Source of the DNA: Defluviicoccus sp. | GTDB lineage: Bacteria > Pseudomonadota > Alphaproteobacteria > MPNO01 | DNA length: 32,692 nt | Direction: 5' to 3' | Assembly: GCA_022826125.1 (NCBI GenBank) | Contig: JAJDVM010000048.1 | Coordinates: 1-32,692 of the forward strand | Shown: piece by piece, positions 4,966 through 20,910 of the stretch | Layout of the letters: each line of letters begins with the position of its first letter | How positions within the stretch are numbered: the stretch's first letter is position 1 | The notes under the pieces: model-generated | The model's database searches: none | Seen by the model: the letters and a program-made list of their open reading frames with translations, nothing else | Told to the model about the DNA's origin: nothing | Position numbers and translations under genes: made by a program

Positions 4966-6267
4966 ATGAAGAAACCCGTTGAAGCGGCGGATCGCCTCCT
5001 GTCGAAAGCCGGTGAAGACGATGACTTTCGCGAACGCCTGCTGGCGAACCCCAGGGAAACCGTGGAAAGGGAATTCGGCGTGACGCTGGCCGAAGGCCAC
5101 GAGATTCACGTGCACGAGGAATCCGACAGCGCGACACATCTGGTGCTTCCGCCACGTAGCAAACTCAGCGAGACCGAGAGAAAGGAGGCCAGGGCCGGTG
5201 CGGCATCGCTCGAGTTTCTTCGCAAGACGCTCCACGACCCCGCGCCGCCCGCTCGTCCCGCCGTTCTCGAACGCGAGCGAGCCCCGGCGACGGCCGCCAC
5301 TCCCGCAGCGCTGGCAAGAGCGGGCCGGGAAAGCATCCGACGCGGTCTCGCTTTCCTGGAAACCGCCATCGACGAAAACGGGGCCTGGCACTGCATCCGG
5401 TTCAATATCGCCGATCCCGACATCCCGCGGCATTTCGAGAGACCGCCCTTCGTGTCGGCTTTCTGCGTACTTGCTCTGGAATGCTGCGACGAACCGCGGG
5501 CCCGGGACCTGTGCGCAGCTGCCCGCAACTATCTCGTCGATACCGCCGAATATCCCGGATTGTGGCGCTACTACCGCCACCTGCCCCGGGATCTCGACAG
5601 TACCGCACTCTGCTCGCTCGTAATTGGCAACCATCCCTGGATTTTCCTGGGGAGAAACGTTCCGTACATATTGGCGAACCGCGACGAGGAAGGTCGTTTT
5701 ACGACCTGGGTGCTGACGGCGGACGAGCCGGACGTTGCCGCGCCGTTTCGTATCGAGGCCGACCCCGTCGTCAATGCGAACGTGATCGCCTATCTCGGCG
5801 ACCGCCCCGAAACCGAGGATGCCCAACGATGGCTGGAAGCGCTGATCGCCGAAGGCAGCGTCGAGGATTCGTCGAAATGGTATCCCGATACGGTCACGAT
5901 CTACTACGCGACGACCCGCGCGATGACTCGCGTGCGGCCGGCCCTCGACCGGCTGCGCCCGATAATCGCGGAACGTGTTCTCGGCCTGTGCAACGAGGAG
6001 GGCGAATTCGGCAACATCCTGCAAACCGCGCAGGCGGTGGCCGCTCTTTACAATATCGGCAGTCTCGAAAGCATCGACGCTAAACGCCTGGTGGAGAATT
6101 TCTTAAGTTCGCAACGCGAGGACGGTAGCTGGCCCGAGCTCCTCGCCTTTGGCGACCAATCGCTGAAATGGGGCGCGATAGGCCGGATAGGGCACGGTTC
6201 GGAAGCCGTGACCTCCGCGTTTTGCATCGAAGCCCTGGAGCGGCTCGTCGAAGTCCTGGGGACGTGA
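4966..6267 (+). CDS. NHLP leader fused to a squalene-hopene-cyclase-like (prenyltransferase/toroid) domain
   Basis: A 433-aa protein. ATG 4966 has GGGAGG at 4954-4959. Residues 1-78 are a nitrile-hydratase-like leader peptide (NHLP): DFRERLLANPRETVEREFG, IHVHE and HLVLPP, ending in Ala-Gly at 77-78. They align without gaps to the leader of the 83-aa precursor at 12336-12587 (27 of 78 identical by my count). A Pro/Ala-rich linker (about 92-117) follows, then an alpha-alpha toroid (about 120-433) with a DLDST motif at 209-213, where squalene-hopene cyclases have DxDDTA, and a QW-type QREDGSW at 383-389. A single roughly 310-aa barrel is shorter than full cyclases (about 630 aa). Whether it is an enzyme targeted by its leader, a carrier, or a protein substrate is unknown. 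It is the first gene of a four-gene + strand block. Confidence 0.82.
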   Translation: MKKPVEAADRLLSKAGEDDDFRERLLANPRETVEREFGVTLAEGHEIHVHEESDSATHLVLPPRSKLSETERKEARAGAASLEFLRKTLHDPAPPARPAVLERERAPATAATPAALARAGRESIRRGLAFLETAIDENGAWHCIRFNIADPDIPRHFERPPFVSAFCVLALECCDEPRARDLCAAARNYLVDTAEYPGLWRYYRHLPRDLDSTALCSLVIGNHPWIFLGRNVPYILANRDEEGRFTTWVLTADEPDVAAPFRIEADPVVNANVIAYLGDRPETEDAQRWLEALIAEGSVEDSSKWYPDTVTIYYATTRAMTRVRPALDRLRPIIAERVLGLCNEEGEFGNILQTAQAVAALYNIGSLESIDAKRLVENFLSSQREDGSWPELLAFGDQSLKWGAIGRIGHGSEAVTSAFCIEALERLVEVLGT

Positions 6268-6344: not shown

Positions 6345-8729
6345 ATGCCGCAAGATACAGCCGTAGGCGGCGGCTTGGGCTCGAACGAGACCGACGTCGC
6401 GCAGCGCATCGAGCCGTCCGTCCTTAACGCCCTTCCGCACTATCTGCCCCTGGGTATTTTTCCGTTGATCGTCGCCGCCGCGATTTATGGCGGCTGGTGG
6501 TTATTGCCGCCATTCGTCTTCATGAGCGTCGCGGGGCCGCTCGACCGGGCGCTGGGAGTCGACGGGCGCAACATGGACCTGGCGAAAACGCCCGAACGCC
6601 GCCTGGTCCTGCACAATCTGCCGGTCTGGATCTGGGCGTTTCTATGGCCGCCGACGCTGGTTTTCGGCATGTGGCAGATCCTTGTCGCCGATCGGTTCGC
6701 AATCTGGGAATGCGCGCTGCTGGCGATCGTGTTGACCATGGAAGCGCAGGCCGTTTTCGTGGTCGGTCACGAGCTGGTTCATCGGCGCTCGGTCTGGGAA
6801 AGGTGGCTCGGAGAGTTCCTGCTGTCGTCGGCTTCCTATCCGCAATACGCCACCGAGCATGTCTATATCCACCATGCCAGGGTCGGCACTCCGCACGACG
6901 TGGGATCGGCTCCGAAAGGAGAGAGTTTCTGGCGGTATTTCCCGAGGGAAGTCGCAAGCAACCTCACCAATTCATGGAAGGTGGTTCGCGAACGGCTGGC
7001 GCGGCGCCGTCTGCCGCTGTGGCATTACAGCAATCCGTTCTGGCGGTACGGCATCGCCGTGGCGTTCTGGTACGCGCTCGTGTACTGGATGAACGGACTT
7101 TGGGCGGTTCCGGTCTTTGCCTTCCTCGGCCTGTGCTGCGTTTTTTCGATGAAGATAAGCAACTATTTTCAACATTACGGTCTCCGCCGGGTCCGCCTGC
7201 CGAACGGGCGATGGGAAAAGGTGATGCCGCGCCATTCCTGGAGCGCGGACTGGAAATTCAGCAACTGGATGTTCTTCAACATGCAGCGGCACGCGGATCA
7301 TCACGCGGCGGCGTCCCGCCACTATCCGCTGCTCCAGGTTCGCGGCGCCGACGAATCGCCGGAACTCCCGGGAACCTACGCCGACATGATGAACATCGTG
7401 CTCAGGCCCAGGCGCTGGTTCGCGAAGATGGATCCGCTGGTGGATCAATGGCGCGAGCGCTTTTATCCGGAGATCGACGACTGGAGCGCCTATGACAGCC
7501 CGATTTCCGCCACGCGGCCCGATGCCTTCGAGGCCATAGTCGAAATCTTCGGCGCGGCCCCGCGGCTCGCCGAACGGATCGAACGCAATTCCGAGCTTCT
7601 CGACAGCCTGCAGGATCGGGAATTCACCGATCTCGACCTCCCGGAGGGATTCGGGCCGGATCGGGAGTCCGAAGCGATCGCGCGGCGCGGGCTCGCGAGA
7701 CTCTACTGGACGCACGAAATGGGCGTTCGGGAAATGAAGGACCTGATCGACGAATTGCCGGCGGTCGATGCGGGCGAGACCGCCGAAATCGTGCGGAACT
7801 GGTCGAACGACAAGGCGTTCCAGATCGGCATGCACGTCGTGCGCGGAAACCTGTCTCCGGCCGAGGCGACGACCGCTCTCTCCAATCTCGCCGAAGCGTC
7901 GATTTCGGCCGTTGTCGCCGCCGTTGTCGCCGATTTTGTCGACCGGGTCGGGCCGGCGCGCGCCGGCGGGATCGCCGCCGTATTTCTGGGCGATCTCGCC
8001 AGCCAGGAGGTCTATCCGAGCGTCGCGATCGAGATACTGTTCGTGCACGACGGCTGGCGGTCCGGCGAAATCGAGCGTCTGTGCAGGCGTTTCCGGGAGA
8101 CCCTGACCGATCTGGCGCGGGACAGTCTCCTGGTCTCTCCGGTGCCGCGCGACTCGAAATCCCTTCTCTCGCTGCCACTTTCCGAGCTGGCCGAGCGCGG
8201 CGAGAGCCTTGTGCCCGCCCTTGCCAGAACGCGCTGCGCGTTCGAGTACGGCGACTCCGGAATCGGCCGACGCTTCGACGCGGCGCGGCGCGACGTTCTG
8301 ACCCGATTTGGCGAGAGCGAGGCCCGGATCGCCCGGCTGCGCGAGCCGCCGGAAGATCCCCCCGAAACGGGCGTCTCCGCTTACGCCCGGATGCGCGGCG
8401 GGCTGGAGGACGTCGAGCGGGCCGCGCGCTTCCTGCAGTTGACCGACGCCGCGATCGGCCACGACGATCCGGCTCCGACCGCCGCCGCCGTGTTCGATGC
8501 GGCGGGCGTCGAACCGCTGGCCCGGGCCTCCGCCATGTGGCGGGACTTGCAGGGCGTCATGCGTCTCGTCGGCGAGGAAGGATTCGACGCGGATGCGGCG
8601 GGGCCGAAGGTCAAGTCTCTCGTTGCGAACGCGTGCGGGTACGAGGACTACGACGCGCTGACGTCGGCGGTCGCCGAAACCGCATCCAGCGCCGCCGCCG
8701 GGGTCGACGCGCTTCTTTCGCGCGCGTAA
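6345..8729 (+). CDS. AlkB-family membrane di-iron hydroxylase fused to a degenerate GlnE-type adenylyltransferase domain
   Basis: A 794-aa fusion protein. ATG 6345 follows GGGGAAG. The N-terminal half (to about residue 385) is a membrane alkane hydroxylase/desaturase: hydrophobic helices plus the histidine boxes HELVH (142-146), EHVYIHH (171-177), QHYG (276-279) and NMQRHADHHA (312-321). These are the di-iron ligands and the AlkB HYG signature. The C-terminal half (about 393-794) resembles the adenylyltransferase half of GlnE: IFGAAPRLAERIERNSELLDSL, a LARTRCAFEYG segment, a GGLEDVERAARFLQL segment, and the closing ACGYEDYDAL. The nucleotidyltransferase DxD reads A561-I-E563, so metal-dependent catalysis is probably lost. 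No rubredoxin or ferredoxin gene is in the window. The likely role is hydroxylation or desaturation of a lipid or alkyl part of the product (inference). Confidence 0.85.
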   Translation: MPQDTAVGGGLGSNETDVAQRIEPSVLNALPHYLPLGIFPLIVAAAIYGGWWLLPPFVFMSVAGPLDRALGVDGRNMDLAKTPERRLVLHNLPVWIWAFLWPPTLVFGMWQILVADRFAIWECALLAIVLTMEAQAVFVVGHELVHRRSVWERWLGEFLLSSASYPQYATEHVYIHHARVGTPHDVGSAPKGESFWRYFPREVASNLTNSWKVVRERLARRRLPLWHYSNPFWRYGIAVAFWYALVYWMNGLWAVPVFAFLGLCCVFSMKISNYFQHYGLRRVRLPNGRWEKVMPRHSWSADWKFSNWMFFNMQRHADHHAAASRHYPLLQVRGADESPELPGTYADMMNIVLRPRRWFAKMDPLVDQWRERFYPEIDDWSAYDSPISATRPDAFEAIVEIFGAAPRLAERIERNSELLDSLQDREFTDLDLPEGFGPDRESEAIARRGLARLYWTHEMGVREMKDLIDELPAVDAGETAEIVRNWSNDKAFQIGMHVVRGNLSPAEATTALSNLAEASISAVVAAVVADFVDRVGPARAGGIAAVFLGDLASQEVYPSVAIEILFVHDGWRSGEIERLCRRFRETLTDLARDSLLVSPVPRDSKSLLSLPLSELAERGESLVPALARTRCAFEYGDSGIGRRFDAARRDVLTRFGESEARIARLREPPEDPPETGVSAYARMRGGLEDVERAARFLQLTDAAIGHDDPAPTAAAVFDAAGVEPLARASAMWRDLQGVMRLVGEEGFDADAAGPKVKSLVANACGYEDYDALTSAVAETASSAAAGVDALLSRA

Positions 8730-8761: not shown

Positions 8762-11080
8762 ATGCCAGAGCAAACGGACACGAACCCCCGGCAAGGGATA
8801 TTGCGCAGGACGACTGCCGCGGACCGGGGCCTCGTCACGCTGCCCGCGCTCGCTCCGCACCTGCAATTCCACGATATCGGCGAACGACAGACGCTGCTGG
8901 TTTCCGAGTCGTTCAATACCCTGCTGCACGGGGAGTTGTACCCCGATCTGCTGCCGTTGCTCGACGGCGGGCACCCGCAAGACGAGATCGTCGCGGCTCT
9001 CGAGGGCACCCATGCCGCCGCCGATGTTCTCGCGGCCATCGTTTCGCTTTCCGCGAAGGGCTATGTGGTCTCCGCCGATCATGGCATGGACCGGCACCGG
9101 GCGGCCTACTGGTCGTCGCTCGGTGCATCGCCGCGCTGGGTCGAACGGCGTCTGTCGGAAACGTCCGTCGCAGTCGAAGGCGACGACGGTCGGTTGACCG
9201 GGCACCTGGAAAAGAGCGGCACCGTCGTGGACGCCCGCGATCCCGGGCTGACCGTCATCGTCTGCGACGATTATCTCGACGCGCGGCTTGCGGAGGCGAA
9301 CCGGCGTCAGCTCGATACGGGCGCGCCGTGGACGCTGGTGCGGCCGCGCGGGATGGAGGCGCTGTTCGGCCCGGTCTTTCGCGCGGACAGGGAAGGACCG
9401 TGCTGGGAATGCCTCGCTTCGCGCTTGCGCGGCCATCGGGAAGTCCACGCCTTTCTGCGCAACGTTGCCGGCGAGGAGGCCGCCTTCAAGCCGTTCGCGG
9501 CGGAGCCGGCGGTGCTGGAATCGCTCTACGGGTTGATCGCGGCGGAGATCGTGAAATGGCTGGTGCTGGATCGGGCGGCGCCGATCGACGAGCGGGCGAT
9601 CGCGATGGATGTCGGCACGTTCGCGAGCTCGCAGCATCGGATCGTGCGCCGGCCGCAGTGCCCGGCCTGCGGCGACGAAGCGTTGCATCGGGCTGATCGG
9701 CCGCCGGTTCCGCTGCGTCTGGAATCGAGCCTCAAGGCTCATCGCAACAGCGGCGGCGCGCGCAGCATGGCGCCCGACGTGACCCTGGCGAAGTACCGCC
9801 ATCTGGTGAGCCCGATCGGCGGTGTCGTGACCTGGCTGTCGCGCACCACCGACGAGACCGATCCCTGGCTGCACGTCTACTGGGCAGGGAGCAATCTCGG
9901 CATGAGAAGCCGAAGCCTGAGCTCGCTCCGGCGCAGCCTGCGCAGCAAGAGTGCCGGCAAGGGCAGCACGCGGGAGCAATCCGAGGTCAGCGCCCTCTGC
10001 GAAGCGATCGAGCGCTATTCGGGCGCCTTTCATGGAGACGAAATCCGTATCCGCGGGCGCCTCGGCGCGTTCGCCGGCGAGGAAGAGGCGATCCATCCCA
10101 ACGACGTACAGCTGTTCAGCGACAACCAGCTCGACAACGCGAAAAGCATCAACGCGGAGGGCCACCCCTACAACATCGTCCCGCCCCGTTTCGATCCCGA
10201 TGCCGAGATCAGCTGGACGCCCGTTTGGTCGCTTACGCAAGAGCGGCATCGCTATCTGCCGACATCGATGCTCTACACAGTGCCGGCCGAGGAGCGCGGC
10301 CCGGCGGACCCGATCGCCGATTCCAACGGCTGCGCCGCGGGCAACACCCTGGAAGAAGCCATCCTGCAGGGCTTCTACGAGCTGGCCGAGCGCGATGCGT
10401 TCGCCATCTGGTGGTATAACCGGCTGCGTGTGCCGGCGGTCGATCTTTCCAGCTTCGACGACGAATATCTCGCCGCGGCCCATGACTATTACGCGCGCCG
10501 CGAACGGGATCTGTGGATACTCGACGTCACTTCCGATATGGGCATTCCCGCCTTCGTCGCGCTCTCGCGGCGGCCGGATGCCCGGACCGAGGACATCATT
10601 TATGGTGCCGGCGCCCACGCCGATCCGCGCATCGCGGCTCTGCGAGCGATCTGCGAGTTGAACCAGTGCCTTACCTGGCTGCCCCGTCCCGGAAAGCAGG
10701 ACGGCCGCCCGACGATCGACGATCCGCTGGCGCTTCGGTGGTGGAAGACCGCGCGACTGGCCGATTGTTCGTGGCTGGCGCCCGCGGAAGGCGCACCGCT
10801 CCGCAAGGCTTCGCACTACCCGGACACCGAGTCGGCGGATACGCGCGAGGACGTCGAATATTGCCGCGCGCTCGTCGAGGCGAAGGGCATGGAATTCCTG
10901 GTGCTGGATCAGACCCGGCCCGACATCGGCATGCCGGTTGCGCGGGTCATCGTGCCCGGCATGCGCCATTTCTGGGCACGTTTCGCGCCCGGACGCCTGT
11001 ACGACGCGCCCGTGAGCATGGGGTTCCGTCCGCGTCCTCTCGCCGAGGCCGACTTGAATCCCGCGCCCGTGATCGCTTGA
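8762..11080 (+). CDS. Fused TOMM cyclodehydratase: E1-like C protein plus YcaO domain
   Basis: A 772-aa cytoplasmic protein. ATG 8762 (GGAG at 8751-8754) is chosen over the long upstream frame, which is a shadow of the preceding gene. Residues about 20-310 form the leader-binding/E1-like region with the zinc pairs CWEC (214-217) and CPAC (300-303). Residues about 330-772 are YcaO, with the ATP/Mg motifs SEVSALCEAIERYS (about 407-420) and SNGCAAGNTLEEAILQGFYELAERDA (cited in part: GCAAGNTLEEAI). In this family the first part binds the peptide leader and YcaO phosphorylates backbone amides so that Cys, Ser or Thr cyclise to azolines. The C terminus ends NPAPVIA, close to but not exactly the PxPxP tail of many azoline-forming YcaOs. 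The probable substrate is the LCCCW-ending peptide. Confidence 0.93.
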   Translation: MPEQTDTNPRQGILRRTTAADRGLVTLPALAPHLQFHDIGERQTLLVSESFNTLLHGELYPDLLPLLDGGHPQDEIVAALEGTHAAADVLAAIVSLSAKGYVVSADHGMDRHRAAYWSSLGASPRWVERRLSETSVAVEGDDGRLTGHLEKSGTVVDARDPGLTVIVCDDYLDARLAEANRRQLDTGAPWTLVRPRGMEALFGPVFRADREGPCWECLASRLRGHREVHAFLRNVAGEEAAFKPFAAEPAVLESLYGLIAAEIVKWLVLDRAAPIDERAIAMDVGTFASSQHRIVRRPQCPACGDEALHRADRPPVPLRLESSLKAHRNSGGARSMAPDVTLAKYRHLVSPIGGVVTWLSRTTDETDPWLHVYWAGSNLGMRSRSLSSLRRSLRSKSAGKGSTREQSEVSALCEAIERYSGAFHGDEIRIRGRLGAFAGEEEAIHPNDVQLFSDNQLDNAKSINAEGHPYNIVPPRFDPDAEISWTPVWSLTQERHRYLPTSMLYTVPAEERGPADPIADSNGCAAGNTLEEAILQGFYELAERDAFAIWWYNRLRVPAVDLSSFDDEYLAAAHDYYARRERDLWILDVTSDMGIPAFVALSRRPDARTEDIIYGAGAHADPRIAALRAICELNQCLTWLPRPGKQDGRPTIDDPLALRWWKTARLADCSWLAPAEGAPLRKASHYPDTESADTREDVEYCRALVEAKGMEFLVLDQTRPDIGMPVARVIVPGMRHFWARFAPGRLYDAPVSMGFRPRPLAEADLNPAPVIA

Positions 11081-11088
11081 GGACGGAC

Positions 11089-12207
11089 ATGGATATTGAC
11101 GAGGCAATCACGCTCACCCAGGACCGCCTCGCCGAGGAGGGCGGCAGCATGGGCGAGTTGCTCGGGCATTTCCGCAGCCGGATTTCGCCGGTGCTCATCG
11201 GAGAACCGGAATGGGAGCGCGTCCTCGAATGCGCCCGAAACCTTCCGGTCACCATGGCCGCCCTTCCGTTCGGCTTCGAGCTGCCGCTGCACGCGCGCAG
11301 GCCGGAGGCGGATTTCGGCGCGTCGCTCGCGAGCGGAACCAGAACGGCGGCGTTTTTCGAGGAGCGCGCACGAACCGACGAGACGGATGGAACCGCGAGG
11401 GCGATCGCAGGGCTGTTCCGGCAAATCGACGCCGAAGATTCGTCCTTGAGAGAAATCGTCGGGCGCAAGCTGATGCTGGAATACGACATCGGCTCGGGAC
11501 GGGACGGCGAGGGTTCGTTTCCGGCATTGTTCCTGCGGCCGGGCGAACGCCCGATAATCGGCGCCGGCGGTCAGGTGGATGACGTCGTCACGGTGGTCGA
11601 TGCGCTCGTTTCAAGCGTAGGTTGGAAAATGAGCGATGCCGAGCGGGAGAACGTCGAGCGCGTTTATCTGGCGCAGCCGGCGGATACCCGCATGGATTCG
11701 TTCGGTATATTCCCGTCTCGTTCACGAGCGATCCGCCTCGCGATAATGGGCTTCAAATCGCAGCCGGAAATATGTTCCTATCTTGAAAACGCAGGTTGGC
11801 CGGGCCGGATTTCGGCCGTCGAGTCCGTAATCGCGCGCTTCAGGGAACGCGCGAATATCGTCCGGACAGGAGCGAATATCGACGTGCGGGAAGACGGTCT
11901 CGGCCCGACGCTCGGTCTTACGCTGATCGTCAAGCAGAGGTACACGAAAGATTCGCGCTATTGGCTCGACGGCCTGACCGATTGGGATCCGTTCCTGGAA
12001 GCCTTGAGCCAGGAAGATATCGTCGTTCCGGAGAAGCTTGCGGCGCTTGCCGGCTGGGTGTCGAAGCCGACGGCGCTTTTTGCGAAGTCGGGGCGTTATA
12101 TTTTGCTGCGCGGGATACACCACATAAAACTGGTCGTATCGGGGAACCGGCTTCGAGAAGCGAAGGCCTATGTGTTCATGGTGCTTTCCGGAGCGGTGCC
12201 CTCTTAA
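11089..12207 (+). CDS. Unrecognised 372-aa cluster protein
   Basis: ATG 11089 lies 8 bases after the YcaO stop, with GAGGA (11079-11083) overlapping that stop codon, so it is almost certainly cotranslated with YcaO. I recognise no domain. The protein is soluble-looking: no signal peptide and no clear membrane helix. It is acidic near its N terminus and has well-formed conserved-looking blocks in the second half: FGIFPSRSRAIRLAIMGF, LGLTLIVKQRYTKDSRYW, and a C-terminal RGIHHIKLVVSGNRLREAKAY. The tail has the feel of a beta-strand core. There are no Cys/His clusters, no nucleotide-binding glycine loop and no flavin motif that I can see. Its position suggests a tailoring or accessory role, but the function is unknown. 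Confidence 0.8.
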   Translation: MDIDEAITLTQDRLAEEGGSMGELLGHFRSRISPVLIGEPEWERVLECARNLPVTMAALPFGFELPLHARRPEADFGASLASGTRTAAFFEERARTDETDGTARAIAGLFRQIDAEDSSLREIVGRKLMLEYDIGSGRDGEGSFPALFLRPGERPIIGAGGQVDDVVTVVDALVSSVGWKMSDAERENVERVYLAQPADTRMDSFGIFPSRSRAIRLAIMGFKSQPEICSYLENAGWPGRISAVESVIARFRERANIVRTGANIDVREDGLGPTLGLTLIVKQRYTKDSRYWLDGLTDWDPFLEALSQEDIVVPEKLAALAGWVSKPTALFAKSGRYILLRGIHHIKLVVSGNRLREAKAYVFMVLSGAVPS

Positions 12208-12335: not shown

Positions 12336-12587
12336 TTACCAGCAGCAGCAAAGGCCGGCCGAGATGGCTTCGAGCTGCTCCTCGGTAATGTTCGGGTCCG
12401 GCGGCAGGGCGAGATGCACCGTCTGCATGTCGCTCTCGTGGACCTTGATGGTCATCGAATCGGGAATGGTAATGCCCAATTCCTCGCTGATGGTGGTCTT
12501 CGGGTCGGCGAGCAGCTGTCGTCTGAAATCCGTGTCGAGGGCGGATTTCTCGACAATCTGCTGAAGCATTTCGTCGCCGCTTCGCAT
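12336..12587 (-). CDS. NHLP-class TOMM precursor peptide with LCCCW core
   Basis: An 83-aa peptide; ATG at 12587 follows AAGGAG at 12595-12600. Residues 1-78 are a nitrile-hydratase-alpha-like leader (DFRRQLLADPK, EELGITIPDS, IKVHES, HLALPP) ending SAG. The remaining five residues, Leu-Cys-Cys-Cys-Trp (79-83), are the apparent core. The Ala-Gly at 77-78 matches a double-glycine-type cleavage point for the C39 peptidase encoded on the same strand. Three adjacent cysteines suit the YcaO cyclodehydratase and could give up to three thiazolines; the terminal Trp is a possible site for the halogenase-like protein. The leader resembles that of the fused toroid protein at 4966-6267. It lies downstream of the transporter operon but with its own roughly 270-bp, unusually AT-rich upstream region. 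Core processing is inference. Confidence 0.92.
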   Translation of the reverse strand: MRSGDEMLQQIVEKSALDTDFRRQLLADPKTTISEELGITIPDSMTIKVHESDMQTVHLALPPDPNITEEQLEAISAGLCCCW

Positions 12588-12859: not shown

Positions 12860-15193
12860 TCAGGGATCGGGCGCGTCCCGCTCCCCGGAACACCGGTCCA
12901 CCGCCGTCAACAGCGCTGGCAGGAGCGTCAGGTCGGCGATAAGCGCAAAGGCGATGATCGTCGCGGTGAGAACGCCGACCTGCGCGGTGGGAACGAACGG
13001 AGAAAAGACGAATATCAGGAACCCGGCGACCAGCACGACCGTCGTCGTGAACAGGGCGAGCCCCGCCGTGTCGAAGGCGTAGTGCACCGCTTCGTCGGGG
13101 CTCTGGCCGTATTCGCGCCGCGCGCGGCGGTATTTGCTGAGGAAATGCACCGTGTCGTCCACGACGATCCCTATGGTCATCGCCACGACGACGGACAGCG
13201 ACAAGCTCACCTGTCCTACCGTCAGGCCCCAGACGCCGAAGCCCAGCACGGCGGGGACCAGATTGGGAACGATGCTTATCAGCCCGAGCCGCAGCGAGCG
13301 CAGGGCGAAGAGGAGAATGGCGGATATCGCCAGCAGCACGACCATCGTCCCGACCAGCATGGCGCGTATGTTGCGCTGCCCGATATAAGCGAACAGCGCG
13401 GCGGGGCCGGTGCTGTTGACGCCGGCCACGTGCGGCGCGTTTTCGCTCAGCCAGGCCTCGGCGCGCGCGTTCAGTTCGAGCAGCTCCTGCGAATAAAGCG
13501 TCTCCGCCGATATCGTCACCCGCGTGGCCGATCTCGATCGGTCGATCTGATTGTTCAGGTTGAGACCCTGCGGCAGGGAGAGCTCGTAAAGCAGCAGATA
13601 TTGCGCCGCCAGTTCCCTGCTTTCCGGTATCCGGTAGGCGGCCGGGTCGTCGCCCCGCATGCTCTTGTTGAGTTGCCGGAACGTATCGGTAATGACCGCA
13701 ACATGGCGCACGGGAGGTTGCTCGCGGTACCAGTCGGCGAATTTCGAAACCTCGGTGAGAAAACGGGGATCGGTAACCCCGCCCTCCACGGATGCCTGCA
13801 GCGAGTATTCGAGCAGCGTGTTGCCGCTCAAGCGCTCATCCATGAAATCCGTGTCCTGCCGGAATTCGACGCTCTCGTCGAAGAAGTGAACCAGAACGTC
13901 GTTGAGCTCGTTGCGCGGGATGGCGACCATCATCAGGGGCACGATCACCAGCCATCCCCAGAATATCGGCTTCCTGTGGCGCAGCACGAAGTCCGCCAGG
14001 GCGCTCATCCGGGGCCCGCGGAACCGCCGCTCCTTCCGGGCGCGAATCGGGAGGAGCGAAAGCAGAGCCGGCATAAAGGTGACGGAAAGCAGGAAGGAGG
14101 CGACGATACCGAGAGCGACGAAGTTGCCGAGGTGACGGTAGGGCGGCACTTCGGAAAAGTTCATGCTCAGGAAACCGAGCGCCGTGGTGAGGCTCGCTAG
14201 AAACACCGGGTGCAGGTTGAGCCTGAGGGCCTCGACGATGGCGTCGTGCCTGGAATCGCCGGCCCGCAGACGTTGCTGCAATGCGACCAGCAGGTGGACG
14301 CAGTTCGCCACCACGATCATCAGCACGATCGTCGGCGCCGGGGAGACGGGCGGGGAAAAGGGCAGCCCCGCCCATACACCCAGGCCCAACGACGCGAGAA
14401 TGGAGAAGACGATGACGATCCCGGTGGCCGCCACGCCCGCCCAGCTCCGGGTGAGCACGCCGAGGATCAGGGCCATGAGCAGAAGGCTCGCGGGCAGGAA
14501 GACCATCTGGCTCTCGATCGAGGCTTCCACGAAGGTCTGATTGATCATCACCGTCCCGACGATACGAAGATCGATGTCGGGAAATCGTTCTTCCGCCTGC
14601 GCGGCGACCGACCTGGCGAATTCGGCGACCTCGGCCACCGCCTCCAGCAGGCCCTCCTCCGGCAGTTCGACGGTGACGTTGACGACGCCGACATCGCCTT
14701 TCCGGGAAAGGATGCTGCCCGCGATACGCGGGTCGGTCGAAGCGATGGAACGGATTTGCGCCCGCGCCTCGGCCCGGCCCAGCTCCTCCGGGTCGACAAG
14801 ATCCCGCACATACAGATCGTCGCCGTCGGCGGTCGTGTGCTGGAAATTGGCGAGCGAGTCGACGCGCCTCGAATAGGGCGTCTTCCAGGCGGCTTCCGTG
14901 AGCCAGACCGCAGCCGAGAGCGCGCTTTGCGACGTGGCGTCGCCGTCGTCGGGAACGATCAGGAAGACCAGGTTCTCGTTCTTCCCGTAGGTGTTCTCCA
15001 GCGCTTCCAGCGCCAGGAGCTGTGGATTGTCGTCGTCGAAGAAGATGCGGTAGCTGGCCGAGAACTGGAGCAGGGCGATGCCGCTCGAAGCGCCCGCGAC
15101 CGCGATCAGCGTGATCGCGATGACCAGCCAGCGGGCCGACAGTACCCGCTCGGCGAAACGCTTCGGAAAATTCTCTCCCGCTGCCCGGATCAA
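12860..15193 (-). CDS. RND/MMPL-family inner-membrane exporter
   Basis: A 777-aa protein. The chosen start is TTG at 15193-15191, which overlaps the stop of the upstream ABC gene as TTGA; the long open frame further upstream is a shadow of that gene. The topology is classic RND: one helix near residues 15-35 (RWLVIAITLIAVAGASSGIA, cited in part), a large periplasmic loop, about five helices, then the same again, with helix-4-like stretches carrying acidic residues (VVAMTIGIVVDDTVHFLSKY, cited in part: IGIVVDDTVHF). This matches the MMPL/HpnN-like branch, which moves lipids or hydrophobic molecules and often pairs with a periplasmic LolA-like protein, as encoded here at 21208-22080. The suggested role is export of a hydrophobic modified peptide (inference). 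Confidence 0.88.
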   Translation of the reverse strand: MIRAAGENFPKRFAERVLSARWLVIAITLIAVAGASSGIALLQFSASYRIFFDDDNPQLLALEALENTYGKNENLVFLIVPDDGDATSQSALSAAVWLTEAAWKTPYSRRVDSLANFQHTTADGDDLYVRDLVDPEELGRAEARAQIRSIASTDPRIAGSILSRKGDVGVVNVTVELPEEGLLEAVAEVAEFARSVAAQAEERFPDIDLRIVGTVMINQTFVEASIESQMVFLPASLLLMALILGVLTRSWAGVAATGIVIVFSILASLGLGVWAGLPFSPPVSPAPTIVLMIVVANCVHLLVALQQRLRAGDSRHDAIVEALRLNLHPVFLASLTTALGFLSMNFSEVPPYRHLGNFVALGIVASFLLSVTFMPALLSLLPIRARKERRFRGPRMSALADFVLRHRKPIFWGWLVIVPLMMVAIPRNELNDVLVHFFDESVEFRQDTDFMDERLSGNTLLEYSLQASVEGGVTDPRFLTEVSKFADWYREQPPVRHVAVITDTFRQLNKSMRGDDPAAYRIPESRELAAQYLLLYELSLPQGLNLNNQIDRSRSATRVTISAETLYSQELLELNARAEAWLSENAPHVAGVNSTGPAALFAYIGQRNIRAMLVGTMVVLLAISAILLFALRSLRLGLISIVPNLVPAVLGFGVWGLTVGQVSLSLSVVVAMTIGIVVDDTVHFLSKYRRARREYGQSPDEAVHYAFDTAGLALFTTTVVLVAGFLIFVFSPFVPTAQVGVLTATIIAFALIADLTLLPALLTAVDRCSGERDAPDP

Positions 15194-18132
15194 GCGATCT
15201 GCCTCTTGACCAGTTCGCGGAATACCCCCTCGACTTCCATGAGTTCGCCAAAAGAGCCGCTTTGGACCACTTTTCCGGCCTGCAACACGTAGATGCGGTC
15301 GGCCTGTTCCAGCGTGGACAGACGGTGGGCGATGACGACCCGGGTGGAGGTCAGGGCGGTGAGGTTCCGCATGACCCCGGCCTGGCTTTCGTTGTCCAGC
15401 CAGTTGGTCGCCTCGTCGAACAGCATGATCCGCGGGCTGCCGATCACCGAACGGGCGATCGTGACCCGCTGACTCTCGCCGCCCGATACGAGAGCTCCGC
15501 TGGTGCCAACCATGGTCATCATGCCCATGGGCATGCTCTTGATCTGGTCTTCGACTTCGGCGATCCGGACCGCCGACCATACTTCCTCGGTCGTTATGTC
15601 ATCGTGGTGACTGACCAGATTGTCCCAGAGGTCCAGGGGATGGAGCCCGATCGATTGCGGTACGGCGCCGATTCTCCGGCGCACCTGCTTCAGGTTCATG
15701 TGCCTGAGATCGCGCCCGTCGTAATAGACCGCGCCAGCGGTCGGCCGGTCGATTCCGAGCGCGAGCCGGAAGAGCGTGCTCTTGCCGGCGCCGGACTCGC
15801 CGGCGATCGCGACGAACTCGCCGGGACGGGCGCGGATCGTGACGTCGTCGAGGATCAACGGGCCCTCGGGGTCGTAGCGGAACGAAACGTGGTCGAAGAG
15901 AATGTCGCCGCCGAGAAAATCGACCGGCTCTCCCTCGGCCTCTGTTTCCGGGATTGCGGCGAGCAGCGGGCGCATCTGATCGAACGCCGGCAGCGTGGCG
16001 GCGATGGCGCCGAAGGACTCGCCGAGCCGGGCGACGGCGGACTGGAAAGCGATGAAGATGGTGTAGACGACGAGAAAGTCGCCCACCGGCGCGGTGCGGT
16101 CGCCCGCCTCCATCACCGCGAAGATCAGCACCCCGCCGGCGAGAAACGGGAGCGCGGCGCCGAATGCGCGCGAATGTCCCTCCAGCGCGCCGAGTTCCAG
16201 CTCCGCGCGCTTCTGCTCGCGATAGTCCTGCGCCCAGATGGCGAACGCCGACCCTTCGGCGTTGTCGACGCGCAGCTTGGCAATGCCGCCGACGATCTGG
16301 AACAGCCGGCCAGCCACGCGCCGTGCCGCGCCGATCATCCGCCCGTACGGCGAGATCTGGCCCAACCCGAAGACCACGGTGACCAGCAAGGAGGCCAGGC
16401 TGAATGCGAGGGCGACGAGCCCGAGGGTGGCGTCGTAGAAGAAGATGACGCCGAAGACCGGAAGCAGAAAAAGGATCGAGAGCAGGCTGTCGGCGACGAC
16501 CCCCTGCGAACCGTCGCGAATATTCTGGAACGTCATTCCCGACATGGCCAGATCGCCCGCCGGATGGCGGTGCAGGACGCTCGGCGGGAGGCGCATGAGG
16601 CGGTCCCAGACGGCGGCTTCGACCCGCGACGCGGAGCGCCCCTCGAGCCGCATCATCGCCGTGCTTTGCAGCAGGTGCAGCATGCCGCCGAGCACGCCGA
16701 AGGCCGCCACCGCCACGGCCGCGGCGTAGATCGCTCCCGCGCTACCGCCCTCCGTGACGTGATTGGCGACGAACCCGAGCGCAAGCGCCGGCAGCAGTTT
16801 GATCAGGCCGCCCGGAAGCCCGGCAATCACCAGACGCGCCAGATCCCCGGCCGATCCATGCAGGGCGAGTCGCAAGAGGTCCGCCGGCTTCACGTTGCCC
16901 GACGGCAACGGCCGATAGAACATCCAGGCTTCGTCCCCCAGCGTGCCGGCGCGATCCGCAGTCATCCGCACGCTGCGCTTGCTGACCGGGTCGATTTCGC
17001 GGTAGCGCCCGAACGTTCCCGGCAGCAGCGCCACCGGCCGGCCGTCCTCCGCGCGGAATGCCAGCAGCGCGTTGCTGTCGCCGCGCCACCACTCGCCCTC
17101 TTCCTTGAAGCGCACGCGCCGGGCGCGCACGCCCGACGCATCGAGAATGTCCACCAGCCCGATCGGAGCGTCGGAAGGCCCGGAGCGCGCCGGAATCCTG
17201 AAATCGATCCCTTCGTGTTGGCCGATGACCCGCAGGGCATCCGCCAGAGCCGTGTCCTCGACGCCGGCATCCCGCTCGAGCGGGAGTTCGTAGATATTGA
17301 ATAGCCGCTGGCGGGCTACTTTCTCGGCCGTGCGGCGGCTGGCCGTCCGCGCGCGTTCGAGGTTCGCATCGTCGACCACGGCGAGGCGGCGGTTGAGACG
17401 TTCGAGGGCGAGGGCAACCGCGTGGAAGGAGGCGAGCACCGGCAGCAGCATGCCCCGCTCCGCCAGCGTTTCGGTCGATTGGCCCGAAAGCGTCGCCTCG
17501 TCGAACAGGGTGAGCCAGCTTGTCCGGGTCAACGGTATCAGGGTTTCCTCGGGGCCGCGCGCCCCGGCAACCTCCGCCGGGTCGACGATATCCATGAACA
17601 GGCTCGCCCCGCGCGGCGGCTCGGACACCCAAACCACTTCGCGCCGCACCGACAGCGTGCAAGGGCCCAGGGTCCGCGCCATCCCCGGCTCGGCCAGCGC
17701 CGTCGGGCGCGGAAGGCGGCTCGCAAAACGCGAGAGCGTGTCGGTGATGGCCGTCAGCCAGGTATCGGTCTGTTCCGCCAGATCCGCCGGACGAACCTCG
17801 GACAGCAGGGATGCCGGCAGGCGCTTGAGCATGGTTCCCGGCAATCCCTTGGCAACCAGGCTGAGCGTGGTCTTTTCGTCATTGTCCCGTTCGTCCGGCG
17901 GGACGCCCGGCAGCAGCCAGCCCGCCTCGCGGCGCATCAAATGCTGCGGCGCCGCCTGCTCGACCCCGTCCCTGAATTCCACCAGGAACAGGTTCACGGC
18001 GCCCCGGTCGATGAACCAGACACTGTCCGGGTCGTCGAGTTTGACCGGCAGGTTGCCGGCGCAGGGCACGGACGTACCGGAGCGCGCGGCAAGGTCGGCG
18101 ATCGACGTGTATTCCGGCGCCGTGTCCTGCAT
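15190..18132 (-). CDS. NHLM-type ABC transporter permease/ATPase (second transporter, ABC2 class)
   Basis: A 980-aa protein. ATG 18132 overlaps the stop of the preceding ABC gene by one base (TGATG). The N-terminal roughly 400 residues include a cyclic-nucleotide-binding-like beta region (VWFIDRGAVNLFLVEF) and a long extension with no peptidase motifs. Then come about six membrane helices (about 420-690) and an ATPase domain with Walker A GESGAGKST, signature VSGGESQRVTIARS and Walker B IMLFDEAT. The D-loop reads NWLD instead of the usual SALD. This layout is that of the NHLM bacteriocin-system ATP-binding/permease protein, which normally accompanies a C39-containing partner, exactly as here. 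Probably it forms a heterodimer with, or works beside, the 18132-20342 product. Substrate inferred: the NHLP peptide product. Confidence 0.9.
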   Translation of the reverse strand: MQDTAPEYTSIADLAARSGTSVPCAGNLPVKLDDPDSVWFIDRGAVNLFLVEFRDGVEQAAPQHLMRREAGWLLPGVPPDERDNDEKTTLSLVAKGLPGTMLKRLPASLLSEVRPADLAEQTDTWLTAITDTLSRFASRLPRPTALAEPGMARTLGPCTLSVRREVVWVSEPPRGASLFMDIVDPAEVAGARGPEETLIPLTRTSWLTLFDEATLSGQSTETLAERGMLLPVLASFHAVALALERLNRRLAVVDDANLERARTASRRTAEKVARQRLFNIYELPLERDAGVEDTALADALRVIGQHEGIDFRIPARSGPSDAPIGLVDILDASGVRARRVRFKEEGEWWRGDSNALLAFRAEDGRPVALLPGTFGRYREIDPVSKRSVRMTADRAGTLGDEAWMFYRPLPSGNVKPADLLRLALHGSAGDLARLVIAGLPGGLIKLLPALALGFVANHVTEGGSAGAIYAAAVAVAAFGVLGGMLHLLQSTAMMRLEGRSASRVEAAVWDRLMRLPPSVLHRHPAGDLAMSGMTFQNIRDGSQGVVADSLLSILFLLPVFGVIFFYDATLGLVALAFSLASLLVTVVFGLGQISPYGRMIGAARRVAGRLFQIVGGIAKLRVDNAEGSAFAIWAQDYREQKRAELELGALEGHSRAFGAALPFLAGGVLIFAVMEAGDRTAPVGDFLVVYTIFIAFQSAVARLGESFGAIAATLPAFDQMRPLLAAIPETEAEGEPVDFLGGDILFDHVSFRYDPEGPLILDDVTIRARPGEFVAIAGESGAGKSTLFRLALGIDRPTAGAVYYDGRDLRHMNLKQVRRRIGAVPQSIGLHPLDLWDNLVSHHDDITTEEVWSAVRIAEVEDQIKSMPMGMMTMVGTSGALVSGGESQRVTIARSVIGSPRIMLFDEATNWLDNESQAGVMRNLTALTSTRVVIAHRLSTLEQADRIYVLQAGKVVQSGSFGELMEVEGVFRELVKRQIA

Positions 18133-20342
18133 CAGCCCGACTTGATCAGCTTGTAGTAGGTGCCGTCGCGGTCCTCGATCAGCTCGTCGTGCGTGCCGCG
18201 CTGCACTTCCGCGCCTTTGTCGAGAACGATGATCTCGTCGCAGTCCCGCACCGTGCTCAGCCGGTGCGCCACGATAAGGCAGGTGACGCCGCGACGCCGC
18301 AGGGCGTCGTCGACATATTCCTCGGTCGCGGCATCGAGGGCGCTGGTCGCCTCGTCCAGAATCAGCACCGTCGGGTTGCCCACCAGCGCACGGGCGATTT
18401 CCAGCCGCTGGCGCTGGCCGCCGCTGAAATTCGTCCCGCCTTCCTCGACGAAGGTCGCGTATCCCTGTGGCCTGACCAGGATGTCGTCATGGATCTGGGC
18501 ATCCCGCGTGGCGGCGAAGATCGCCTCGTCCGGAACGGCCGGATTCCACAAGGTTATGTTGTCGCGCAGGGAGGCGGAAAAAAGCACGACTTCCTGATCC
18601 ACCATGGAAATGGACTGGCGTAGCACCTCCTCCGGAATCTCGTCCCGGAGATGGCCGTCGAACAGGATTTCGCCGGACCAGGGCCGGTAGACGCCCGAAA
18701 CCAGACGCGCGAGGGTCGACTTGCCCGAACCGCTGGGACCGACCACGGCCACGCGCTGCCCCGGCTCGATCTTCAGGTTGAAGTCCTTCAACAGGGGCGG
18801 CCGGCTCCTGTTGAAACCGAACGTGACGTTTCGCAGTTCGAGCTGGCCGGCGAGCTGGAGCCGGCCGTTGAACGTCGGGATCGACACCGATTCCGGACTC
18901 CGGCGGCTGAACACCGGGTCTTCGGGGGTCTTGGAGATGTCCTCGAGTCGTTGCAGATCGACTTCGAGCGCCTGGCGTTTGTCGGCGAATTCCAGAAAGC
19001 GCCCGACGGGCGCCAGAAACATCTCCGCCAGGATATAGAACCCGACCAGCGTCCCCAGAGTCATCTCTCCCGCCATGACGAGGTTTCCGCCGACGCCCAG
19101 GATCGCCGCGGCGCGAAGCGCGGCGATCAAACCCGGAAGCGCGGCATTGACGGAGCCCAGTTCGGAATGGAGCTGCCGCGCATGCAGTTCGCGCGCCTGC
19201 TGACCGCTCCAGCGCGAAAAAAACCGGTCGTCCGATCCGGTCAGGCGCAGGTTGTCGGCATGAGTCAGCATCTGCATGCCGGTATCGATCAGCAATCCCT
19301 GTTCGCGCCTCATCGCGTGGCTGCGAACCGCCCGGAGCGCGTTGAGAAAATGGGCCAGCATTCCGTGCAGAAGGGCCAACAGCAACACGATCAGGGCAAG
19401 ACGCGCGTCATAGGCCAGCATCGCGACCAGCAGCACCGCGCTCATCGCCATGTCGATAACGAGCACGAGAAACTGATCCGTAAGATTCTTCGCGATCCTG
19501 TCGATGGACGACACCCGATCGGTCAAATCGCCCACCAGCCGGTGTTCGAAGAACTCCACCGGCAAACGCAGCAGCCGCGACAGGCCCCGGTCGTAGCCGA
19601 TCACCGAAATCCGGACCGCGAGCCGCTTCAGGAATCGGTGCTTGAGCAACGACAGGACGTAAACCAGGACGCCGCCGCCCAGCAAGGCTGCCACCAGCCC
19701 GCCCCAGGCCCCGCGATGTTCCAGAACGTCGTCCACGAAAACGCTGAGGGACGCGGGAACGATAAGCGTCAGCAACGTCAACATGAGACCGCAGGCAAAC
19801 ACCCCGGTCAGCACGGTCCACGACCCGACCGGCAATGTCCCCAGTTGGCGGAACAGGCTGGGCTGCTCGCCGCCGGTCTTGAAATCCGCGCCGTGCTCGA
19901 ACCGCAGCGCGACTCCGCTGTAGCCCTTGTTGAATTCTTCCGCGGAAACCCTGCGCCGCCCGGTGGCCGGGTCGTTGAGATAGAAATAGCGGTCGTCGAA
20001 CCCTTCGAGCACGACAAAATGGCTGAATTGCCAAAACAGTATCAAGGGTAACTCGAGCTTCTTCAGTTGTTCGACGCGTATGCTTAATCCGCTGCATTCG
20101 AGGCCGTAATGTCTGGCGGCGCGCGAGATGCTCGCGGCACTGCTGCCGTCCCGGCTGACTTCGCATTTTTCCCGCAATTCGGTAAGCGGCACCCAGCGTC
20201 CGAAATAGGCCAGTATGCTGCCGAGGCAGGCGGCACCGCATTCCGACGCGTGCATCTGCAACAGAATTGGCGTCGTTATTCTTTGTTTCGATGCGTTCCG
20301 CGAGGCCTTGCCGTTTGCCCCTTTGGAGGCGCGGGACGCCAT
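18132..20342 (-). CDS. NHLM-type peptidase/permease/ATPase ABC transporter (C39 domain)
   Basis: A 736-aa protein; ATG 20342 lies one base after the HlyD-like stop. The N-terminal C39 peptidase is intact: Gln29 and catalytic Cys35 in QMHASECGAACLG, His108 in FSHFVVLEGF and Asp124 in LNDPATG. A six-helix permease core (about 165-450) and a C-terminal ATPase follow, with Walker A GPSGSGKST, signature FSGGQRQRLEIARAL, Walker B LILDEATSALD and the H-loop IVAHRLST. In bacteriocin maturation this class cuts after a Gly-Gly-like pair and exports the core through the inner membrane. The Ala-Gly at the end of both NHLP leaders in this cluster is the expected cut site. It is the second gene of the - strand operon. 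Confidence 0.94.
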   Translation of the reverse strand: MASRASKGANGKASRNASKQRITTPILLQMHASECGAACLGSILAYFGRWVPLTELREKCEVSRDGSSAASISRAARHYGLECSGLSIRVEQLKKLELPLILFWQFSHFVVLEGFDDRYFYLNDPATGRRRVSAEEFNKGYSGVALRFEHGADFKTGGEQPSLFRQLGTLPVGSWTVLTGVFACGLMLTLLTLIVPASLSVFVDDVLEHRGAWGGLVAALLGGGVLVYVLSLLKHRFLKRLAVRISVIGYDRGLSRLLRLPVEFFEHRLVGDLTDRVSSIDRIAKNLTDQFLVLVIDMAMSAVLLVAMLAYDARLALIVLLLALLHGMLAHFLNALRAVRSHAMRREQGLLIDTGMQMLTHADNLRLTGSDDRFFSRWSGQQARELHARQLHSELGSVNAALPGLIAALRAAAILGVGGNLVMAGEMTLGTLVGFYILAEMFLAPVGRFLEFADKRQALEVDLQRLEDISKTPEDPVFSRRSPESVSIPTFNGRLQLAGQLELRNVTFGFNRSRPPLLKDFNLKIEPGQRVAVVGPSGSGKSTLARLVSGVYRPWSGEILFDGHLRDEIPEEVLRQSISMVDQEVVLFSASLRDNITLWNPAVPDEAIFAATRDAQIHDDILVRPQGYATFVEEGGTNFSGGQRQRLEIARALVGNPTVLILDEATSALDAATEEYVDDALRRRGVTCLIVAHRLSTVRDCDEIIVLDKGAEVQRGTHDELIEDRDGTYYKLIKSG

Positions 20343-20343
20343 C

Positions 20344-20910
20344 CTACGGTTGCCTCAAATGCAGGAATGCGATTGGCGATTGCCTGCCGAGCTCGATTAT
20401 AACCCGGCATCTCTTGCCGGCGAGCGGCGTGGAATCAAGCCTTTTGTCGAGCGCGATATCGACGCGGTACACGAACACCGGCGCCTTGGACTGGAAGAGC
20501 GCCAGACGCTCCGACAGGGGTGCAACGGAAATTGTCGCGATCTTTCCGCCGAACGTCTCCGTTTCCCCCTCCGCGACGGTCAGCTCGACCTCCGCCGGCA
20601 ACCCCGGCTTGATTTGCGGCGCGGTGTCGCTCTGCACCCAGAGAAGGACCTGTACGGAGCGTTTTTCATCGGACCCGACCAGCACGCCCTTCACCGCGAG
20701 GCTGCGGTCTATGTTGCCGAAGGCCAGCCATACCGCGAGGAAGAACAACAACAGGGCGATGACGGCGACAAGCAGACGTTCCCGCGGTGTGGAGATTGTC
20801 AGCAGCCGGTCGAGTTGTTCCCGCTCTTCCTTCGCTTCGGCAACGGTGTTGTGAAAAGAGTCGAATGGATTGTTAAACACGGCCTTGTGCAGCCTTCTCG
20901 CCGGGATCAA
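20344..20910 (-). CDS. Short HlyD-like NHLM secretion protein
   Basis: 188 aa from a TTG start at 20910; an in-frame TGA just upstream rules out longer forms. A GTG at 20880 (protein beginning MFNNPFDSF, 178 aa) is equally plausible; neither has a good Shine-Dalgarno. The segment LDRLLTISTPRERLL followed by a single hydrophobic helix (LLVAVIALLLFFLAVWLAF) is typical of the NHLM-associated membrane fusion protein, and IKPGLPAEVELTVAEGE matches the barrel region of HlyD. The long coiled-coil hairpin of ordinary HlyD proteins is absent, so the protein is roughly half the usual length. It heads the - strand operon, one base from the C39 transporter gene. Likely inner-membrane, periplasm-facing adaptor. 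Confidence 0.8.
   Translation of the reverse strand: MIPARRLHKAVFNNPFDSFHNTVAEAKEEREQLDRLLTISTPRERLLVAVIALLLFFLAVWLAFGNIDRSLAVKGVLVGSDEKRSVQVLLWVQSDTAPQIKPGLPAEVELTVAEGETETFGGKIATISVAPLSERLALFQSKAPVFVYRVDIALDKRLDSTPLAGKRCRVIIELGRQSPIAFLHLRQP

Follow-up and report, generated by a model that had tools for sequence, protein, structure and literature searches.

The window analyzed here is the complete contig JAJDVM010000048.1 (32,692 nucleotides) of a Defluviicoccus sp. genome of 5.87 Mb in 377 contigs, and it carries a gene cluster that, on its sequence features, we take to be an srp cluster of sponge symbionts. One gene of this cluster encodes a 433-residue protein in which an N-terminal domain resembling the leader of an NHLP-type precursor peptide is fused to a toroid domain that, by predicted fold, is most like the class II isoprenoid cyclases drimenol synthase and MstE. 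The fused leader is conserved in related srp loci and has lost known binding motifs of such leaders, and it is absent from further toroids, six of which have a prenyltransferase-like gene and NHLP precursors in the same stretch. We favor, at a rough probability of 55%, the reading that this protein is an isoprenoid-cyclizing enzyme of the srp pathway and that its leader module has been kept as a permanent docking or activating domain.

Homology, conservation and altered motifs of the fused leader

The original prediction held that the toroid protein carries the same 78-residue NHLP leader as the 83-residue precursor encoded in the cluster, both ending in Ala-Gly. Residues 1-78 of the two proteins do align without a gap, with 27 of 78 positions identical (in 20,000 shuffles the mean was 5.2 and the highest count 15), and they have D20-F21, V49-H50-E51, L61-P62-P63 and A77-G78 in common. 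Both score above the 50.9-bit cut-off of the NCBIfam model TIGR03793, the precursor with 69.2 bits and toroid residues 6-70 with 54.0 bits; some other toroids fall slightly below it (45-49 bits). By sequence comparison, the toroid leader is homologous to the precursor leader and is not the same leader, because its mean identity to SrpE-type leaders is 34.5% (residues 5-66) and the two form separate clades. Residue 78 is also not the end of the module, which extends in conserved form to about residue 97 and is followed by a fast-evolving linker (98-114). In the AlphaFold2 model of the toroid protein, which was read from confidence and secondary structure only, the N-terminal segment forms helices at residues 7-17, 19-27, 29-37 and 69-76, confidence is low at 71-110 (block means 63, 62, 66 and 52), and the toroid helices begin at residue 113. 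Where the GG or AG site of an NHLP precursor is followed by a short core, the toroid protein continues for about 350 residues.

Related loci were collected by a scan of bacterial species genomes for the 433-residue protein, from which the best 80 of 114 relatives were kept; full-length matches were ranked first, and loci that have lost the leader are perhaps under-represented. The 80 proteins are 68-79% identical to the window protein in the best segment, and all match from residues 1-11 on, except one cut by a contig end (from residue 29). Record titles place the loci in nine named phyla (40 Pseudomonadota, 17 Gemmatimonadota, 9 Acidobacteriota, 3 Nitrospirota, 3 Latescibacterota, 2 Myxococcota, 2 Nitrospinota, 1 Binatota, 1 Verrucomicrobiota and 2 unassigned), although single assignments may be wrong because nearly all loci are binned metagenome assemblies; most of the records name no host. 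Of 14 additional srp toroids, full or partial, 13 also have the leader, with a match from residue 1, and the remaining one is cut by a contig end. These NHLP-toroid proteins co-occur with NHLM transporters, a check suggested in the original prediction: an NHLM ATP-binding cassette (ABC) protein reached at least 60% identity at 75 of the 80 loci. When 385 genomes of the class were scanned with TIGR03793, the matches listed above the cut-off in frames longer than 300 residues comprised three toroids of the srp type and an apparent precursor; longer frames below the cut-off were not inspected individually. A 462-residue frame with an NHLP match in genome G105 was rejected as a fusion, as it seems to consist of a peptide of about 106 residues (an in-frame ATG being assumed as its start) and an upstream open frame.

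Across the 81 toroids (the window protein and its 80 relatives), residues 1-64 have a mean identity of 66% and a median ratio of nonsynonymous to synonymous substitution rates (dN/dS) of 0.26, residues 65-97 have 72% and 0.21, and the cyclase part has 77% and 0.17; the ratios are rough, with a high dS of about 0.85-0.99. By these ratios, the fused leader domain is under purifying selection. That the fusion is a relic, in which a precursor gene and a cyclase gene were joined by chance and the leader part has no function, would agree with the loss of known binding motifs and with the fact that leader-free relatives have the same partners; we nevertheless consider it very unlikely, since both leader segments are far more constrained than the linker (0.77), even though dS averages about 0.85, and the leader occurs in all 80 kept loci across the nine phyla (one of them starting inside the leader at a contig end), in a scan that put full-length matches first.

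The constraint does not extend to the motifs by which NHLP leaders are known to be read. A hydrophobic L(X)4L pair at positions 67 and 72 is required by the brominase SrpI (PMC10858898), and the YcaO enzyme MprC requires the pair together with helix 1 (PMC12455567). This pair is present in 58/58 SrpE-type precursors and in 0/81 toroids, of which 79 have R72 instead. Position 77 is Ala in all 58 precursors, whereas it is Thr in 60 and Ala in 11 of the 81 toroids, so that the Ala-Gly ending noted for the window protein and its precursor is real in these two and is not a feature of the toroid family. Ala/Gly-Gly at 77-78 is kept in 14/81 toroids, the window protein included, and G78 in 81/81. The stretch around E71-S81 appears to be under a constraint of its own because E71, A75, G78 and S81 are invariant in the toroids. 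As a separate observation, residues 65-97 (positions 5,158-5,256) are strongly conserved yet modeled with low confidence, and they are a candidate binding motif.

These altered motifs bear on the earlier suggestion that the toroid itself is the substrate, which would be cut after G78 by the C39 domain of the exporter ABC1 and then exported or matured like a giant core. The universal G78, the Ala-Gly of the window protein and the position of the toroid gene directly after the NHLM exporter genes in most loci are in line with such cleavage. However, the L(X)4L pair is missing from every toroid, the Ala/Gly-Gly site survives in only the 14 members, conservation runs past residue 78 to 97, leader-free relatives exist, and the domain resembles terpene cyclases. 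We have dropped cleavage or export as the leading view and regard it as highly improbable. Because the pair and, mostly, the protease site have been lost, the fused leader is presumably not removed.

A purely structural role, in which the NHLP module would dimerize or stabilize the cyclase and recruit nothing, is compatible with the strong constraint on residues 65-97 and with the predicted template modeling score (pTM) of 0.87 for the whole model, which would allow a fixed arrangement; fungal HAD-type terpene cyclases have been reported to depend on dimerization (PMC13244436). Against it stand the variability of the linker, the low model confidence at 71-110 and the existence of related toroids without the module, and we find this role rather doubtful.

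The toroid, the prenyltransferase-like gene and leader-free relatives

The toroid was modeled from 42 aligned proteins of the window and the related loci, with a mean predicted local distance difference test score (pLDDT) of 83. Foldseek placed the drimenol synthase AsDMS first (9m7f, E 6e-12, TM-score 0.58 by query length), followed by an unnamed Actinoplanes protein, single-domain entries of the squalene-hopene cyclase type and MstE (6sbc, E 1e-9). A profile of 17 toroids (11 leader-bearing, 6 leader-free) matches drimenol synthase also by sequence (E 2e-9), and its alignment sets the toroid DLDST on the drimenol synthase DLDTT, with D211 at the second Asp; an entry titled D333N mutant has Asn at the D211 position, presumably that mutation. 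DLDS is invariant in 81/81 toroids. The earlier description of a squalene-hopene-cyclase-like domain in the place of the core peptide is thus borne out by fold and profile: the predicted model has the alpha/alpha toroid of class II terpene cyclases, and D211 corresponds to the catalytic Asp of their DxDD or DxDTT motif, which makes it a candidate catalytic acid.

A second gene of the window (positions 11,089-12,207), which was matched in all 41 srp loci covered by 20 kb or more of sequence, probably encodes a prenyltransferase, to judge from its predicted structure. The AlphaFold2 model (pLDDT 89.5) shows an ABBA barrel for which Foldseek returned EpzP first (4ee6, E 4.5e-7), then NphB, CloQ, DMATS1 and AmbP1. 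The protein itself matches no NCBIfam or Pfam family, a search of the PDB sequences brought up no known prenyltransferase family either, and across 43 members of its family Pfam gave scattered chance-level matches only.

The pairing of toroid and prenyltransferase-like gene is not restricted to srp loci. A search of the 385 genomes of the class, in which four candidates were scored per genome so that copies may be missed, recovered eight toroids with the leader, one of them truncated at a contig end, and six leader-free ones; the latter are in genomes G285, G059, G187 and G284 and, as second copies, in G210 and G389. Their motifs are DLDSL (G285), DLDST (G210), EVDST (G389) and DCDDT (G059, G187 and G284). 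A homologue of the prenyltransferase-like gene adjoins five of the six (gap of 0-32 bases) and lies 8.3 kb away, among precursors, in G285; the homologue in G284 (L137:6233-7328, minus strand) was matched as two overlapping pieces in different frames, which indicates a frameshift or a sequence error. NHLP precursors were found in all six stretches; their distance from the toroid is 0.3 kb for the three loci of the G059 type and 5.6-7.7 kb for the remaining ones. The six stretches examined gave no match to a YcaO protein or a halogenase. NHLM transporters were matched in those of G285, G210 and G389, and none in those of G059, G187 and G284. All 11 precursors of G285 end in Trp, and those of G210 and G389 end in Trp and Tyr. 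The G285 locus (L133:334-13562), in which the 11 NHLP precursors surround the prenyltransferase-like gene together with an NHLM exporter and the leader-free toroid, is probably a prenylated-peptide cluster; three srp-type loci from the genus of G285 (65-67% identical), counted among the 14 further toroids, bear the leader. A search of 398 genomes of the phylum, with five candidates scored per genome and the same possibility of missed copies, recovered the window toroid and G682 only, a seventh leader-free toroid that is an outlier (motif DMDDT) with no NHLP or prenyltransferase match within 19.9 kb.

The original prediction had named leader-free homologues without NHLM neighbors as evidence against it. 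Such homologues exist, and three of the six have no NHLM match in the stretch examined; all six nevertheless have NHLP precursors and the prenyltransferase-like gene, and only the outlier G682 has neither. These relatives also bear on the view that the toroid serves, without catalysis, as a scaffold or chaperone for the azoline or bromination steps. The change of DxDD to DLDS would suit such a role, and SrpE was only partly modified when srpC and srpE were coexpressed, with SrpC hard to purify (PMC10286304), as if a partner were missing; the partial modification would fit a missing partner, and other explanations exist. Weighing against a scaffold are the presence of DLDS in all 81 toroids and its alignment with the DLDTT of drimenol synthase, as well as the tie to the prenyltransferase-like gene, which holds also in the six stretches without a YcaO or halogenase match. 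We judge the scaffold view unlikely.

In a tree with 13 of the 81 toroid leaders, the toroid leaders form one clade (support 100/99) and the SrpE leaders another (98/96), and the idea that the fused leader is a recent copy of the SrpE leader finds no support in it; a first tree with 20 of the 81 had nested the toroid leaders among G285-type leaders, with weak support. All 80 toroid leaders compared are closer to G285-type leaders (42.3%) than to SrpE (34.5%); the G285 leaders are themselves closer to SrpE (48.3%). One locus that starts within the leader (L048) was excluded from this comparison and from the co-evolution analyses described below. The closeness to G285-type leaders is in keeping with an origin in which a precursor was captured out of a cluster of the isoprenoid type, and other arrangements are permitted by the approximately unbiased test, in which a grouping of toroid and SrpE leaders was not rejected (p 0.30). 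The leader is probably a derived addition gained by the srp toroids, and not one lost by the others, because the leader-free forms are spread among clusters with precursors and the prenyltransferase-like gene.

Proposed pathway and role of the leader module

We propose that the separate ABBA prenyltransferase would attach an isoprenoid to the Trp at the C-terminus of the SrpE core (LCCCW), after which the toroid would close rings by protonation from D211. Residues 1-97 of the toroid protein would have originated as the leader of an NHLP precursor and been joined permanently to the cyclase, with the leader body kept, the L(X)4L pair lost and the Ala/Gly-Gly protease site lost in most members. 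The fused leader would stay on the enzyme as a docking or in-cis activating domain. It would either bring the cyclase to some other pathway component that binds leaders or occupy the leader site of the cyclase itself. The substrate, the order of the steps, the catalysis by D211 and the docking role are what we infer from the genes and models described above. The proposed substrate is supported by the Trp ends of the G285 precursors and by the lack of a YcaO or halogenase match in the six leader-free stretches. The RND, LolA-like and outer-membrane-type genes of the cluster would likewise suit a product that is lipophilic.

Several observations weigh against this proposal. The assignment of the prenyltransferase rests on a modest fold match (TM-scores of 0.4-0.6, root-mean-square deviations of 7-11). 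The Pfam model PF13243 scores 24.3 bits with the whole toroid protein and 25.4 with the toroid alone, just below its cut-off of 26.1, and Ser occupies the fourth position of the DxDD motif. The precursor of the G059 type has a non-aromatic C-terminus (NFPM), with Trp earlier in the core. Prenylation of SrpE is not mentioned in the portion of the srp literature covered, to which the original 2021 description of srp does not belong. A purely docking role leaves the invariance of G78 unexplained, and the window protein retains Ala-Gly at that site. Binding of the toroid leader to the YcaO protein or the brominase in the known way is unlikely, because the published NHLP interfaces depend largely on the L(X)4L pair that the toroid lacks. 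Finally, a search for a docking partner by co-evolution, which omitted loci with a short, missing or frame-broken partner gene, gave its best partial distance correlations for ABC2 (0.26, 0/500 permutations) and ABC1 (0.21, 7/500); the signal was discarded, since most or several cyclase slices of equal length gave as much or more. The docking proposed in the original prediction is plausible in view of the purifying selection on the leader domain, and no partner has been singled out.

It is a tentative possibility that the protein is a natural leader-in-cis enzyme for a ribosomally synthesized and post-translationally modified peptide (RiPP), in which the disarmed leader sits in a leader site of the cyclase or the prenyltransferase and keeps it permanently on. 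If so, a module built for one precursor family would work on the different leader of SrpE or on a leader-free core, and the srp product would be a peptide with thiazoline, bromo-Trp and a polycyclic isoprenoid.

The srp cluster and its place among known systems

The window cluster is taken to be an srp cluster because the LCCCW core of its precursor, its YcaO cyclodehydratase and its Trp brominase with K84 agree with the descriptions of SrpE, SrpC and SrpI; LCCCW is the SrpE core printed in PMC10858898, which also names K84 and the 105-109 loop of SrpI. Its features are collected in Table 1. Across the 41 srp loci of 20 kb or more, an SrpE-type precursor was matched in 39, the YcaO gene and ABC2 in 38 each, ABC1 in 37, the halogenase in 34, the RND transporter in 18, the LolA-like gene in 13 and the outer-membrane-type gene in 10.

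Table 1. Positions and supporting evidence of the features discussed in the window
Feature	Position	Strand	Basis
433-residue toroid open reading frame	4966-6267	+	4966-5199 = its residues 1-78
NHLP-derived leader-mimic module (putative), residues 1-97: helices 7-37, VHE/LPP segment, altered helix region 65-97	4966-5256	+	TIGR03793, conservation in 81 homologues, dN/dS, model
Variable linker, residues 98-114	5257-5307	+	31.8% mean identity, median dN/dS 0.77, pLDDT 52 (101-110)
Class II isoprenoid cyclase-like toroid (predicted), residues 115-433	5308-6267	+	Foldseek AsDMS/MstE, drimenol synthase profile match
DLDS motif, residues 209-212; D211 candidate catalytic acid	5590-5601	+	Invariance, drimenol synthase alignment
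FA_desaturase/AlkB-like membrane domain and GlnE-like C-terminal region	6345-8729	+	PF00487 92.4 bits, PF03710 28.1 bits
TIGR03882 and YcaO cyclodehydratase (SrpC-like)	8762-11080	+	TIGR03604 291 bits, TIGR03882 137 bits, PF02624
ABBA-fold aromatic prenyltransferase-like protein (predicted), 372 residues, no family annotation	11089-12207	+	AlphaFold2 and Foldseek
SrpE-type NHLP precursor, 83 residues	12336-12587	-	TIGR03793 69.2 bits; core LCCCW at 12339-12353
HAE3/MMPL RND transporter with sterol-sensing-type domain	12860-15193	-	NCBIfam/Pfam profile matches
NHLM ABC2 exporter subunit	15190-18132	-	TIGR03797 662 bits, below 709 cut-off
NHLM ABC1 exporter with C39 peptidase	18132-20342	-	TIGR03796 843 bits, just below 853 cut-off
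Short HlyD-like subunit	20344-20910	-	TIGR03794 E 3e-6, partial
LolA-like periplasmic protein (domain)	21520-22080	+	PF17131 194 bits
DUF1302-like outer-membrane-type protein, weak match	22059-23288	+	PF06980 17.3 bits, below cut-off 23.2
SrpI-like flavin-dependent peptidyl brominase	23404-24678	+	PF04820 151 bits; K84; PQRVS at 105-109

Some further features of these loci were observed. The gene next to the toroid in the window has an odd pairing of domains; it adjoins the toroid in many srp loci and lies elsewhere or was unmatched in others. The HlyD-like subunit has 188 residues against the 421 positions of the model, with similar space in other srp loci. The precursor of one srp locus (L057:12623-12877, minus strand) has the core variant LCCCGW, not LCCCW. 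Outside the cluster, two contigs of the same genome (C236 and C334, stretches L097 and L099) hold NHLP-model matches in nitrile-hydratase-like frames of 217 residues with VCTLCSC, a nitrile hydratase metal motif, and a third (C171, L098) has a frame with two NHLP-like stretches that lacks VCTLCSC and is of unclear kind.

According to the title of the 2021 srp paper, srp clusters are reportedly highly distributed in sponge microbiomes. A conserved pair of prenyltransferase and cyclase would mean that the srp end product still misses its whole isoprenoid part, and this would redirect the search for the product in sponge extracts. A leader that sits on an enzyme without the L(X)4L pair, and mostly without the protease signal, would also be a natural test of which side of a folded leader is used in docking, a question that NHLP biochemistry has yet to answer, and the module is a possible part for peptide engineering.

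In its core, its YcaO protein with a TIGR03882 domain, its K84 brominase and its NHLM exporter, the window cluster resembles the described srp system, whose pathways are presented as azoline formation and bromination (PMC10858898, PMC10286304). It differs by the toroid and the prenyltransferase-like gene, which are unmentioned in the srp literature covered; the original 2021 paper lies outside this coverage and may list both. The same two folds, ABBA and MstE-like, are joined in one chain in NctPC, a bifunctional RiPP enzyme that adds a geranylgeranyl group to the Trp of a peptide and cyclizes afterwards (PMC13290415). Unlike NctPC, to which we liken the pair by its description only, the window and the six leader-free loci have two separate genes, and the cyclase of the window bears an NHLP module where that of NctPC has a prenyltransferase; by analogy, the two srp genes would correspond to a split NctPC.

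With MstE and the drimenol/drimenyl synthases, the window protein shares the predicted toroid fold and the DxD(D/T/S) motif, whereas it is a single toroid tied to peptide genes, with Ser at the fourth position and an N-terminal NHLP module. Like the NHLP leaders of MprE7, OspA and SrpE, this module scores above the TIGR03793 cut-off and has N-terminal helices, VHE and LPP, but in the toroid family the hydrophobic L(X)4L pair and the short core are missing, and Ala/Gly-Gly usually is as well. A partial literature search, which did not cover the original srp paper, gave no pointer to a natural NHLP-enzyme fusion or to an srp cyclase. A parallel exists in engineered proteins in which a leader was covalently attached to a RiPP enzyme and yielded an always-on enzyme (PMC13003496). 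The window fusion, in contrast, is natural, conserved and located on a terpene cyclase-like protein, and it suggests that leader-bearing enzymes of this type, until now engineered by hand, have also arisen in evolution.

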